DNA of 64,000 nt, taken from contig NZ_CP005083.1 in assembly GCF_001563265.1 (NCBI RefSeq), forward strand, positions 2,855,001 to 2,919,000, given 5' to 3'. This DNA is from Sphingobium sp. TKS (lineage in GTDB: Bacteria; Pseudomonadota; Alphaproteobacteria; Sphingomonadales; Sphingomonadaceae). Numbering within the stretch: position 1 is the stretch's first letter; the number at the start of each line of letters is the position of its first letter. Of this stretch, positions 34,639-40,971 are shown piece after piece. Below the pieces are notes generated by a model, which was not told the DNA's origin, ran no database searches, and saw nothing but the letters and a program-made list of their open reading frames with translations. The position numbers and the translations under genes are program-made.

Positions 34639-34731
34639 CCGTGCTCCTGCGAAAGCACTCGAGTAAGACGAGTGGTTCGCGAGAGCCCAGTTCGGACCTC
34701 TAGACTGGGCTCCTGCCTTCGCAGGAGCACG
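34639..34731. repeat. Family-A palindromic repeat, diverged and enlarged copy
   Basis: The outer arms (GTGCTCCTGCGAA at 34641 and TTCGCAGGAGCAC ending at 34730) and part of the inner arm (AGCCCAG / CTGGGCT) match the other copies. The left side carries an extra small hairpin (CACTCG / CGAGTG, about 34656-34673). It sits between ileS and lspA, so it would lie inside the mRNA if the two genes are co-transcribed. Confidence 0.75.
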
Positions 34732-34753
34732 AAGCACTGGCAAGCGCTTCATA

Positions 34754-37729
34754 TCAAACCGACAGCACTTCGTCGCAGCGGTTGCAGAGTGCGCCGTCTT
34801 CCTCCACTTCCGGCAGCAGGCGCCAGCAGCGGCCGCATTTGTGCCAGTCGCTGGGCTTGACGACGATGCCATCGCCCTTGCCCATTTCGATGCGGGCGAC
34901 GATGGCGATTTCGGCGAAGTTCACACCGTCACTGGGGACCAGCTGACCCATGGTGACGTCGGCCTCCAAGCTGGAGCGGACGATCTTTTCGCGGCGGAGC
35001 GGCTCGATGGCTTCGTTTACCTGATCGCGCTGGTCGCGCAGCTCGGTCCACTTGGCGTCGAGCGCTTCATTCGCCCAAGCCGCGTCGACTTCCGGCCATT
35101 CGAGGAAATGGACGCTTTCTTCGGGGTTTGTGAAGCGGCTTTGCCAGACCTCCTCAGCGGTGAAGGGGATGATCGGCGCAGCATAGCGGACCAGCGCGTG
35201 GAACAGCGTGTCCAGCACGGTGCGATAGGCGCGGCGCTTGGGATCGCTCTTCGCGTCGCAATAGAGGCAGTCCTTGCGAATGTCGAAGAAGAATGCCGAC
35301 AGGTCGCTATTGGCGAAGTCGAACAGGGCGCGGGTATAGCGGCTGAATTCGAGCCAATTCTCGCTGCCGGCCGCCTTGTCCACCACCGCCTTGAGGTCCG
35401 CGTCGAGGCTGGCAAGCCGGTGGAGCATATAGCGCTCCAGCTCCGGCATTTCCGAAACGGGCAGCTTTTCCTCTTCCGAAAAATCGGAAAGAGCGCCCAG
35501 CAAGTAACGGAAAGTGTTGCGAAGTTTGCGATAGGCGTCGGACGAACCGGCCAGCACTTCCTTGCCGATGCGGACATCGTCGAAATAGTCGGTGCTGGCG
35601 ACCCAGACGCGCAATATGTCGGAGCCGCTCTCCGCGATGACCTTCAGCGGATCGACCACATTGCCCAGGCTCTTCGACATTTTGCGGCCCTGCCCGTCCA
35701 GCGCGAAGCCGTGGGTAAGGACGGCGTCATAGGGCGCGCGGCCGCGGGTGCCGCTGCTTTCGAGCAGCGAGGACTGGAACCAGCCGCGATGCTGGTCGGA
35801 GCCTTCCAGATAAAGGTCGGCGCGGGCATCGGGGCCGTAGCGGCCCTCGACCACGAAGCTGTGAGTCGAGCCGCTGTCGAACCAGACGTCGAGAATGTCG
35901 TTGACCACCTCATAGTCATTGAGGTCGTAATCCGGGCCGAGCAGCGCCTGATGGTCGGCGCCGAACCAGGCGTCGGCGCCTGCGCCCTTGAATGCTTCGA
36001 CGATGCGGGCATTTACTGCCTTATCAACGAGATATTCGCCAGTCTTGCGATGAACATAGAGGGCGATGGGTACGCCCCAGGCGCGCTGGCGGCTGATCAC
36101 CCAGTCGGGGCGGCCCTCCACCATCGAGCGGATGCGGTTGATCGAGCGTTCCGGCACCCAGCGGGTGTTTTCGATCGAGTTGAGGGCGAGGTCGCGCAGG
36201 GTGGCGCCATTGCCCTTAAGCCCCTCCCCTTCATGGGAGGGGTTGAGGTGGGAGATCAACCCAAGCCCCGAACTATCTGGAGAGCCCCCACCCCCGGCCC
36301 CTCCCCTGAAGGGGAGGGGTGAAGTCTGGTCCATCGGGATGAACCATTGGGGGGTGCAGCGGAAGATGATCTTCGCCTTGGAGCGCCAGCTATGGGGATA
36401 GCTGTGCTTGAAGTCGTCGGAGGCAGCCAGAAGCCCGCCCACTTCGCGCAGGTCGGTGCAGATCGGGCCGTCCTTGCTGACGAATTTCGGGTTGATAACC
36501 GATCCTTGGCCGCCGAGCCAGAGCCAGTCCTCGCGATATTTGCCGTCATTTTCGACGGCGAAGACCGGGTTGATGCCGTTCGCCTTGCAGAGCGCGAAGT
36601 CGTCCTCGCCATGGTCGGGCGCCATGTGGACAAGGCCGGTGCCCGCGTCGGTGGTGACGAAATCGCCTGCGAGGAACGGGCGCGGCCTGGCGAAGAAGCC
36701 GCCGAGGGCGTGCATCGGGTGGCGGGCGATGGCTCCGGCGAGTTGGGAACCTTTGAGCGAAGCCACCTTCTTCATGACTTGGCCACCCAAAGGCGAGTTC
36801 TCGGGAGAGCCAGTGATGCGCGCCCTTACAGACTCCGCCAATGGTTCAGCCAACAGGTAACGGAACTCCGCGACACTTTCGGTCGTCAGAACGCCTTCCG
36901 GCCTGACATTGTCAGTGGTATCAAACGGCCACTCAAAAACATAAACGCCGTACTCAACCTCCGGCCCATAAGCCAGCGCCTGATTGACCGGGATCGTCCA
37001 AGGCGTCGTGGTCCAGATCACCGCATGAGCGCCGACCAGTTCCGGCGCGTTCGGCGCTTCAACAATCTCGAACGCCACGTCGATCTGGGTCGAGACGATG
37101 TCCTCATATTCCACTTCCGCCTCGGCCAACGCGGTCTTTTCGACCGGGGACCACATGACGGGCTTGGCGCCGCGATAGAGCTGGCCGCTTTCCGCGAATT
37201 TCAGCAGTTCCCCGACGATGGTGGCTTCGGCGTCGAACTTCATGGTGAGATAGGGATCGTCCCAATCGCCCATCACGCCAAGGCGCTTGAACTGCTCCTT
37301 CTGCACGCCGACCCATTTGTCCGCATAGGCGCGGCATTCGGCGCGGAACTCCTGCGCGGGAACCTCGTCCTTGTTCTGTTTCTTCTTGCGATATTCCTCC
37401 TCGATCTTCCATTCGATCGGAAGGCCGTGGCAATCCCAGCCGGGGACATAGGGCGCATCTTTACCCAGCAATGACTGGCTGCGGACGATGATGTCCTTGA
37501 GCACCTTGTTCATCGCGTGGCCCATATGGATGTCGCCATTAGCATAGGGCGGGCCGTCGTGGAGGATGAAGCGTTCGCGGCCCTTCCGCCGCTCGCGCAG
37601 CTTGCCATAGAGGTCCATTTCCTCCCAGCGCGCGAGGATCGCCGGTTCCTTCTGCGCGAGGCCCGCCTTCATCGGGAAGTCGGTGACGGGCAGGAATACG
37701 GTGCTCTTATAGTCTGGCTGGTCGGTCAT
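34754..37729 (-). CDS. ileS: Isoleucyl-tRNA synthetase with in-frame repeat insertion
   Basis: A 991-residue class I synthetase charging tRNA-Ile. The HIGH motif is HMGH (near residue 68), the KMSKS motif is intact (GRKMSKSLGN), an editing domain lies at about 200-400, and the C-terminal zinc finger has four cysteines (CGRC...CNRC). After QWFIPMD (D467), about 38 residues (468-506) have no place in normal family members: in E. coli IleS only a few residues separate this aspartate from the following LR. The extra DNA is a palindromic repeat (36214-36327) read through in frame. The gene is presumably functional because it is essential and otherwise complete. Confidence 0.95.
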   Translation of the reverse strand: MTDQPDYKSTVFLPVTDFPMKAGLAQKEPAILARWEEMDLYGKLRERRKGRERFILHDGPPYANGDIHMGHAMNKVLKDIIVRSQSLLGKDAPYVPGWDCHGLPIEWKIEEEYRKKKQNKDEVPAQEFRAECRAYADKWVGVQKEQFKRLGVMGDWDDPYLTMKFDAEATIVGELLKFAESGQLYRGAKPVMWSPVEKTALAEAEVEYEDIVSTQIDVAFEIVEAPNAPELVGAHAVIWTTTPWTIPVNQALAYGPEVEYGVYVFEWPFDTTDNVRPEGVLTTESVAEFRYLLAEPLAESVRARITGSPENSPLGGQVMKKVASLKGSQLAGAIARHPMHALGGFFARPRPFLAGDFVTTDAGTGLVHMAPDHGEDDFALCKANGINPVFAVENDGKYREDWLWLGGQGSVINPKFVSKDGPICTDLREVGGLLAASDDFKHSYPHSWRSKAKIIFRCTPQWFIPMDQTSPLPFRGGAGGGGSPDSSGLGLISHLNPSHEGEGLKGNGATLRDLALNSIENTRWVPERSINRIRSMVEGRPDWVISRQRAWGVPIALYVHRKTGEYLVDKAVNARIVEAFKGAGADAWFGADHQALLGPDYDLNDYEVVNDILDVWFDSGSTHSFVVEGRYGPDARADLYLEGSDQHRGWFQSSLLESSGTRGRAPYDAVLTHGFALDGQGRKMSKSLGNVVDPLKVIAESGSDILRVWVASTDYFDDVRIGKEVLAGSSDAYRKLRNTFRYLLGALSDFSEEEKLPVSEMPELERYMLHRLASLDADLKAVVDKAAGSENWLEFSRYTRALFDFANSDLSAFFFDIRKDCLYCDAKSDPKRRAYRTVLDTLFHALVRYAAPIIPFTAEEVWQSRFTNPEESVHFLEWPEVDAAWANEALDAKWTELRDQRDQVNEAIEPLRREKIVRSSLEADVTMGQLVPSDGVNFAEIAIVARIEMGKGDGIVVKPSDWHKCGRCWRLLPEVEEDGALCNRCDEVLSV
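36214..36327. repeat. Family-B palindromic repeat inserted inside ileS
   Basis: Two G/C-rich hairpins face each other: CCCCTCCC-N6-GGGAGGGG (36221-36242) and CCCCTCCCC-TGAA-GGGGAGGGG (36298-36319, a perfect 9-bp stem). Between them is a spacer with AGGTGGG and CCCCCACCCCC segments. The insertion adds a whole number of codons and no stop. Similar CCCCTCCC-type palindromes are common between genes in sphingomonads; finding one inside a coding region is unusual. The ends are approximate. Confidence 0.85.
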
Positions 37730-37763
37730 GAAGGTCCGCGCGTGTTAATCTGATCGCGCGGCA

Positions 37764-38702
37764 TTAGGCGAGGTACGGCGTTCCCGCAAGGATTTGCCGC
37801 GCATCGTCGCAGTCCTTCGCGATCGCCGCCATTAGCGGGTCGAGACCGTCATATTTCGCTTCCGGGCGGAGGAAGTGGATGAGTTGGACCTCTATCACCT
37901 GATCGTAGAGGCTTTCGGCGAAATCGAAGAAATGCGGCTCCAGCAGTTCCTTGGGCGGATCGAAGCTGGGGCGGATGCCGAGATTGGCGGCGCCGTCCAG
38001 CACACGGCCGTCGGCAAGCAGGCCGCGCACGGCGTAAATGCCATAGGCCGGGCGCAGATAATGGCCAAGGTCGACATTGGCGGTCGGAAAACCGATGGTG
38101 CGGCCAAGCTTGTCGCCATGCTGAACCATGCCTTCGATGGTGAAGGGGCGGGTCAGCAGGCGGGTCGCGGTGGCGCAGTCGCCCGATTTGAGCGCCTGAC
38201 GGATGTGGGTGGAGGAGATGATTTCTCCGCCTGCTCCGGTAACCGGCGCGACGGCTTGCGCGCTAAGGCCCATGGCGCCGCCCAATTGCGCGAGGGTTTC
38301 GGTGGTGCCTGCGCGGTCCTTGCCGAAGGTAAAATCCTCGCCGGTGACGACTCCCGCGACGCCCCAGCCGGTCAGCAGGCGGACGAAGGCTTGCGGGTCG
38401 AGGGCCGCGAGTTCGCGGGTGAAGTCGAACACCAGCATGGCATCGGCGCCGGCTTTGGTGAACAGGCGTTCGCGCTGGTCGAGCGTGGTCAGGCGGAACC
38501 AGGGCGTTTCGGGTCGAAAGAGCCGCATGGGATGCGGGTCGAATGTGGCGATGATCGCGGGGCGGCCTTCGGCCCGGGCAAGCTCTATGGCGCGGCGGGC
38601 GACAGCCTGATGCCCGGCATGAAATCCGTCGAAATTTCCCAGCGCCATGATGCTGCCGCGCAGATGGGCAGGCATCGGGTCGCTGCTGTGCAGCCGCTCC
38701 AT
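37764..38702 (-). CDS. ribF: Bifunctional riboflavin kinase/FAD synthetase
   Basis: A 312-residue enzyme making FMN and then FAD. The adenylyltransferase domain opens with GNFDGFHAGHQAV (about residues 22-34); the kinase domain has the GFPTAN motif (about residues 200-205). The ATG at 38702 gives the usual length; a much longer open frame upstream overlaps folA and is not coding. It sits 8 bases after folA in the minus-strand cofactor and translation gene run. Confidence 0.94.
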   Translation of the reverse strand: MERLHSSDPMPAHLRGSIMALGNFDGFHAGHQAVARRAIELARAEGRPAIIATFDPHPMRLFRPETPWFRLTTLDQRERLFTKAGADAMLVFDFTRELAALDPQAFVRLLTGWGVAGVVTGEDFTFGKDRAGTTETLAQLGGAMGLSAQAVAPVTGAGGEIISSTHIRQALKSGDCATATRLLTRPFTIEGMVQHGDKLGRTIGFPTANVDLGHYLRPAYGIYAVRGLLADGRVLDGAANLGIRPSFDPPKELLEPHFFDFAESLYDQVIEVQLIHFLRPEAKYDGLDPLMAAIAKDCDDARQILAGTPYLA

Positions 38703-40896: not shown

Positions 40897-40963
40897 CGTG
40901 CTCCTGCGAAGGCAGGAGCCCAGCTCAGACGGCGGGACTGGGCTCCTGCCTTCGCAGGAGCAC
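40897..40963. repeat. Family-A palindromic repeat, perfect copy
   Basis: Two perfect 26-base arms (40898-40923 and 40938-40963, beginning GTGCTCCTGCGAAGG and mirrored) flank the centre CTCAGACGGCGGGA. It lies 8 bases beyond the gpmA stop and upstream of purE, so it would be transcribed at the 3' end of gpmA mRNA. Confidence 0.88.
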
Positions 40964-40971
40964 ATCGGATT

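Follow-up and report, generated by a model that had tools for sequence, protein, structure and literature searches.

In-frame palindromic repeats have been known in Rickettsia since 2000, and repetitive extragenic palindromes (REPs) lying inside genes were tabulated in 2013. E. lithoralis and S. alaskensis, two species mentioned below, are sphingomonads, as is Sphingobium sp. TKS, the subject of this study. In a stretch of 64,000 nucleotides from this strain (NZ_CP005083.1, positions 2,855,001 to 2,919,000; the window), the isoleucine--tRNA ligase gene ileS contains a palindromic element in frame. PMC2229807 (2007) reviews the palindromic elements of Rickettsia (RPE) along with other small repeats found inside genes, and according to the available part of that review, how such repeats move had no experimental support. 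For REPs, the accessible text of PMC3733652 describes GTAG and CGTC types inside genes, for example in tRNA synthetases of E. lithoralis and S. alaskensis (spelling of the paper), as well as a REP at about the same site of recB in two Xanthomonas, and the CGTC type seems to lack a dedicated transposase. The intragenic REPs listed there may include an IleS case. In-frame repeats themselves are thus a known kind, with RPE and intragenic REPs as precedents.

As described in the portion of the review at hand, the RPE and the protein-coding palindromes of Wolbachia are ~100-150 bp long and occur both between genes and in frame in conserved protein genes (PMC2229807), and the ileS element shares this description. 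By its sequence, it is a protein-coding palindromic element in the functional sense, a multi-copy palindrome with a stop-free frame in a conserved gene, and the likeness to the Rickettsia repeats that the original prediction had drawn, a multi-copy palindromic repeat captured in frame by a housekeeping gene, holds. The likeness is one of description, and the host group is different. Also unlike the RPE, several families use one loop in sphingomonads, and nuclease genes stand between ends of these kinds, an arrangement that we did not see described for RPE in the available text of PMC2229807.

REPtrons, in which GTAG REPs accompany a RAYT gene, likewise have paired palindromes beside one small nuclease-type gene and many gene-less copies, according to the accessible part of PMC3733652. 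The gene here, however, belongs to the DUF559 or GIY-YIG family and is not a Y1 transposase. PF01797 (RAYT-type, Y1 transposase) had no match in the TKS genome at E <= 0.01, and RAYT was rejected as mobilizer of the repeats. CGTC REPs resemble, by eye, the repeats at a second IleS site and some GIY-YIG flanks (CGTCAT-hairpin), and intragenic copies in tRNA synthetases have been reported for them in what is accessible of PMC3733652. The TKS ileS element is of another type, with CCCCTCCCC hairpins, and ends of the CGTC kind flank GIY-YIG genes here, whereas PMC3733652, in its accessible text, has them seemingly without a dedicated transposase. Finally, VsrA of Caulobacter shares the Pfam family DUF559 with the gene found between such ends. 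The available text of PMC12907096 traces a DNA-damage response of a methylase mutant to it and proposes that it is a mismatch-repair nuclease; VsrA is presented there as a putative repair nuclease, and a term search of that text found no word starting with "palindrom".

The ileS element and its relatives in the TKS genome

The element, ~112 bp long, has two facing arms of 22 nt each that are 95% complementary and 55 nt apart (Table 1), and each arm forms a hairpin by itself, with perfect stems of 8 and 10 bp. The facing hairpins of the original prediction are therefore borne out, and so is the insertion in frame and without a stop: the frame of 991 codons runs unbroken across the element, and the protein passes NCBIfam TIGR00392 (785.4 bits against a cut-off of 621.4). 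IleS residues 400-600 gave one match in the TKS genome at E <= 1e-40. With up to three mismatches allowed, the hairpin consensus matched three times in the window, every time inside the ileS element, against a mean of 0.00 in shuffled sequences (n = 100). By eye, the element ends in CTTCA and CTTAAG, i.e., without a GTAG tetranucleotide, and CGTC is absent from the ends as well. An Rfam search of positions 35000-38000 for known structured RNAs returned only sub-threshold chance matches to microRNAs.

Table 1. Coordinates in the window of ileS and of the parts of its palindromic element
Feature	Position	Strand	Basis or sequence
ileS, isoleucine--tRNA ligase, 991 aa	34754..37729	-	Open reading frame and NCBIfam TIGR00392
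In-frame palindromic element of ileS (residues ~470-505)	36213..36324	-	Bounds from alignment with the same-family copy at the second IleS site of Sphingobium sp. AS12 (L041)
Arm/hairpin 1, 5' on coding strand	36298..36319		Minus-strand reading CCCCTCCCCTTCAGGGGAGGGG
Arm/hairpin 2, 3' on coding strand	36221..36242		Minus-strand reading CCCCTCCCATGAAGGGGAGGGG
55-bp centre between the arms	36243..36297		Inner repeats GGGGGTGGGGG / TCCCACCTC

Against the solved IleS of S. aureus (1ffy), a step from 417 to 420 in the chain corresponds to one from residue 467 to 512 in the query. Extra residues had been predicted at this place, and relative to 1ffy they are indeed an insert; in sphingomonads, however, the site usually holds a longer loop already, with a median of 23 residues in 81 sequences. 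In an AlphaFold model of the protein (33 sequences; mean predicted local distance difference test score, 69.5), the score is below 50 at residues 470-507, and the adjoining stretches are also low, too weak for siting the loop with respect to the active site.

We searched the TKS genome (6.23 Mb in 11 contigs) with positions 36214-36327 by BLAST. The 22 matches grouped into ileS and nine other places, so that the further genomic copies called for by the original prediction exist. One half element, at C1:1452114-1452158 (L014), lies in frame in a uvrA frame of 1000 aa, where, by Pfam, the UvrA interaction domain (373-479) precedes it and the DNA-binding domain (563-674) follows; uvrA is listed among REP targets in other species in the accessible part of PMC3733652. 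In another place (G000:C1:4073547-4073980), two halves of the ileS-element family, ~400 bp apart, stand around a DUF559 gene (Pfam E 1.5e-31). The ileS element therefore has the same ends as a gene-bearing unit of the same genome. A PADLOC scan of the frame of this gene gave a weak restriction-enzyme match only (E 0.0025). The open frame continues through both flanking palindromes, the repeat being open at both frame ends (L005, L008).

Palindromes bracketing nuclease genes

As judged from sequence comparison, repeats of the kinds found in the IleS loop are the terminal inverted repeats of one-gene nuclease units. There are longer units in which such ends stand ~400 bp apart around a gene of the DUF559 family (Vsr-like PD-(D/E)XK), and where the ileS element has 55 bp, the centre of the gene-bearing units holds a nuclease domain of ~310 bp. 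Other end types seen in the IleS loop bracket GIY-YIG nuclease genes. The DUF559 ends are C/T-rich hairpins (CCCTCTCCC.., CCCCTCCC..), and many GIY-YIG genes have palindromic ends resembling CCGTTCG.. or CGTCAT...

To score this arrangement, we aligned the 260 bp upstream of the domain locally with the reverse complement of the 260 bp downstream. The maximum among 297 random placements in named ileS loci, 14.5, served as the null; in a second null, drawn from neighbourhoods of nuclease loci, 3 of 400 exceeded 14.5, with a maximum of 40.0. DUF559 was present in 85 of 94 genomes of the genus. Thirty loci were tested, the best hit of one genome each, two of them with the match near a contig end; 27 of the other 28 and one of the two contig-edge loci were above the null. 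For GIY-YIG, 24 of 30 best hits in the genus were above it, 26 of the 30 having frames of at least 359 codons, and among 40 short-frame genes picked by hand from the list of genus matches, 39 were. Cold-shock genes (PF00313) of the same genus served as the control, and none of the 28 usable loci was above the null (2 of 30 skipped). Class-wide, 18 of 28 DUF559 loci (2 of 30 skipped; gene in 51 of 192 genomes) and 15 of 26 GIY-YIG loci (4 of 30 skipped) passed, as did 16 of 27 newly fetched DUF559 loci in a phylum draw (gene in 57 of 199 genomes). Counting perfect hairpins near GIY-YIG genes found little, the filter being too strict for imperfect palindromes.

Between different loci, the similarity of GIY-YIG ends follows that of the proteins (63 units, rho 0.635, permutation p 0.0005). 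One GIY-YIG gene of the same class, in a genome of 1.4 Mb (L487, G097), has long inverted ends starting CTGTCATCC; it may point toward the palindromes of Rickettsia and other reduced genomes.

Short forms and long gene-bearing forms coexist. The spacing of hairpins, measured among the places listed for a single contig of each genome, has two peaks, at 65-77 or 393-400 bp in one genome (G004) and at 90-104 or 397-409 bp in another (G002). The 85 genomes with DUF559 had a median of 24 hairpins of its families and the nine lacking the gene a median of 4 (rank test, p 8e-6; reversed-pattern controls gave at most 2 per genome); when two hairpins were subtracted per gene, the medians were still 16 and 4 (p 2e-4). 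The number of hairpins correlated with the number of DUF559 genes (rho 0.69, or 0.56 after the same subtraction), kinship between genomes being ignored in this comparison.

The junction between yqeY, named from its sequence, and dnaG shows both nuclease classes at one place. It was read in 90 of the 93 genomes with a dnaG match. The gap held a full DUF559 gene in 35 and a full GIY-YIG gene in 23, so that two unrelated classes of nuclease unit fill the same short gap in 58 of the 90 genomes. It measured at most 60 nt in 12 genomes, nine of them with 10-16 nt, and was longer without a nuclease match in 15, two of these with ~830 bp; yqeY was out of reach in two. A partial nuclease gene was found in three; in TKS, it is part of a GIY-YIG gene in ~256 bp. 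Within one genus, the site thus occurs empty, filled by either nuclease, or with the remnants of one, and the gap looks like a preferred landing site.

Further palindromes of the window are recorded here. A pair, GTGCTCCTGCGAAAGCAC ... GGGCTCCTGCCTTCGCAGGAGCAC, lies at positions 34641-34733, directly downstream of ileS, and its end type resembles the flanks of two GIY-YIG genes (L283, L291). More copies of this type are a pair at ~40902-40968 and another near position 77.

Recurrent palindromic repeats in one loop of IleS

The extra loop had been expected to be specific to the TKS lineage. This is not the case: many sphingomonad IleS proteins have a long loop at the site, often of unrelated sequence. 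We aligned 81 sequences, TKS and 80 named relatives (the best 80 of 586 confirmed candidates, Sphingobium sp. 15-1 being the best; one of the search peptides, QWFIPMDQ, touches the loop). The block at TKS residues 470-505 has the widest length spread in the protein, from 0 to 63 residues (standard deviation, 11.7). The loop was then extracted from 172 loci, 80 named and 92 from genomes of the genus, TKS included and with some genomes in both sets. Its pattern was found in 170, giving 139 distinct sequences, of which 132 were long enough and free of N for the tests.

Inverted arms of at least 12 paired bases were present in 27 of the 132 loops and in 2 of 396 shuffled loops. In a BLAST of the loops against the flanks of nuclease genes, 33 scored above the top null score (30.0 bits); DUF559-type ends were the nearer match for 19 and GIY-YIG-type ends for 14. 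Three of the 33, just above the threshold, look like ordinary loops and are probable false positives (L048, L061, L118); the class of L073 is doubtful, GIY by score and DUF559-type by eye; and five palindromic CGTC-like loops are missed (L026, L039, L104, L113, L134). Because of these probable false positives and misses, we give the number of repeat-derived loops as about 35 of 132; two more repeat-like loops, L070 and L075, lie outside the 132. Roughly one in four distinct loops is a palindromic repeat of another kind.

On a tree of the 81 sequences, the loop changed at least 16 times among four states set by eye (DUF559-type, 15; GIY-type, 7; CGTC-like, 3; none, 56), gain being inseparable from loss on this tree, which was built without the variable blocks and has 21 weak inner branches of 78. 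The site in sphingomonads is a hypervariable loop into which palindromes of several families have been taken up again and again, in frame wherever we read the sequence. Long loops that are not palindromic recur there too, in several types, and one of these is carried by near relatives of TKS. One such type (..PRCAEEEAILARQ.. and kin) occurs in L029, L035, L050, L080, L085, and others from several sphingomonad genera, and is perhaps an ancestral loop or an exchanged allele.

A second site, site B, corresponds to TKS residues 342-344. Seventy-five of the 81 sequences have no insert of at least 8 residues there. It carries CGTC-type repeats (CGTC or a close variant) in L032, L033, L038, L074, and L075 and has no insert in L034, L031, and L043. 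In Sphingobium sp. AS12 (L041), it is occupied by the same family as the TKS insert: the two agree in each of their first 41 bases and share the right end CTTAAGGG. No target-site duplication was seen by eye when L041 and L034 were compared at site B, with flanks too diverged for one to be defined. The IleS of L074, a metagenome-assembled genome (Sphingobium sp. UW_MP_SPHING1_2), has 1099 residues and CGTC-type palindromic inserts at three sites, site B and two more.

Origin of the repeats and its implications

We consider it more probable than not that the ileS insert is a short form, lacking the gene, of a DUF559 nuclease unit with palindromic ends, spread by way of the nuclease. We infer the role of the nuclease in moving the repeat, and likewise the copying step. 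The nuclease would recognize the hairpin ends and nick or cut there, and the unit would spread through repair-templated copying to other places, with gene-less derivatives traveling along on the same ends. Genes would be struck as well; where the gene is essential, an insertion would survive only if it kept the frame, brought no stop, and fell in a length-tolerant loop. The ileS insert would be such a survivor, tolerated rather than useful.

Several observations weigh against this explanation. Among the nine genomes without DUF559 (E <= 1e-5), seven still hold 2-12 hairpins of its families, and the number of GIY-YIG genes also tracks the DUF559-type hairpins (rho 0.54), so that part of the hairpin-gene correlation may reflect a general element load. 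Outside the genus, the terminal-repeat test failed for DUF559 at 10 of 28 loci of the class and 11 of 27 of the phylum draw, and for GIY-YIG at 11 of 26. The tested loci are not independent: related species share the position of some of them (24 of 351 DUF559 pairs and 397 of 1953 GIY-YIG pairs). For DUF559, end type and protein similarity were uncorrelated overall (27 units, rho -0.05, not significant), with more similar ends in the 13 closest protein pairs. In the genomes compared, movement was not observed and a target-site duplication was not defined, nor was an exact empty version of the TKS insertion found, the near relatives having an unrelated loop instead of none. Furthermore, the DNA-damage-response role given to VsrA in the accessible text of PMC12907096 means that not every DUF559 gene need be mobile.

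The main rival, which we judge distinctly less probable, has the nuclease genes as passengers, homing-like invaders of pre-existing palindrome pairs, and the repeats moved by another enzyme such as an unrecognized or lost transposase. It would accommodate the excess of gene-less copies over nuclease genes (in TKS, 23 + 4 hairpins and one DUF559 gene), the few hairpins that persist without DUF559, and the missing overall correlation of DUF559 end type with protein similarity. But the GIY-YIG ends do track the protein, 27 of 28 DUF559 loci in the genus are bracketed and a gene-bearing site is also known empty, and the transposase expected from the REP systems has no PF01797 match in TKS.

It is improbable that the loop alleles, repeats included, were swapped among sphingomonads by homologous recombination, the TKS insert having arrived with a transferred ileS segment. 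Such exchange would fit the recurrence of non-palindromic loop types in scattered species and genera and the unrelated loop, in place of an empty site, in near relatives of TKS. Exchange alone cannot, however, create the different families that closely related species hold in the loop, and in Sphingobium sp. AS12 the same family occupies another IleS site. Still harder to credit is that DUF559 and GIY-YIG are ordinary repair genes and the palindromes their transcription terminators or mRNA-stability hairpins. Although VsrA acts in the DNA-damage response and gene ends often carry REPs (accessible parts of PMC12907096 and PMC3733652, respectively), inverted copies lie on both sides of the nuclease genes and are absent at 28 cold-shock genes, gene-less pairs occur elsewhere in the genomes, and a single site holds either nuclease class or, in some species, nothing. 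That a disordered loop drifted by chance into low-complexity, G+C-rich sequence, as its variability and Gly/Pro-rich composition might suggest, is contradicted by the DNA-level identity with copies elsewhere (22 matches) and by the excess of long inverted arms over shuffled loops, and can practically be dismissed.

What appears new is the recurrent use of one IleS loop by several families and the bracketing of nucleases by the repeats, together with a concrete candidate for the mechanism. In searches of the literature on DUF559, alone or with repeats, on GIY-YIG with REPs or inverted repeats, and on sphingomonad palindromes, we met no account of the nuclease link, with subscription journals thinly covered and novelty accordingly unproven. 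The chances seem to us about even that a large share of alphaproteobacterial REP-like repeats, including the CGTC REPs, are gene-less offspring of minimal elements with hairpin ends, whose only protein is a DUF559/Vsr-like PD-(D/E)XK or GIY-YIG nuclease and which compete for the same intergenic sites and for tolerant loops of essential proteins, IleS recurrently among them.

That palindromes bracket small DNA-cutting genes in sphingomonads suggests how such repeats spread and end up in proteins. The mover of many in-frame repeat families has long been open, and the bracketing found in the genus (27 of 28 DUF559 and 39 of 40 selected short GIY-YIG loci) provides a candidate. If this is true, many small nuclease genes of unknown role would be recast as mobile units. 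The IleS loop is a case of an essential protein fed by repeats, repeatedly at one place, in bacteria other than reduced intracellular ones, and its natural alleles make the cost or benefit of the extra peptide measurable.

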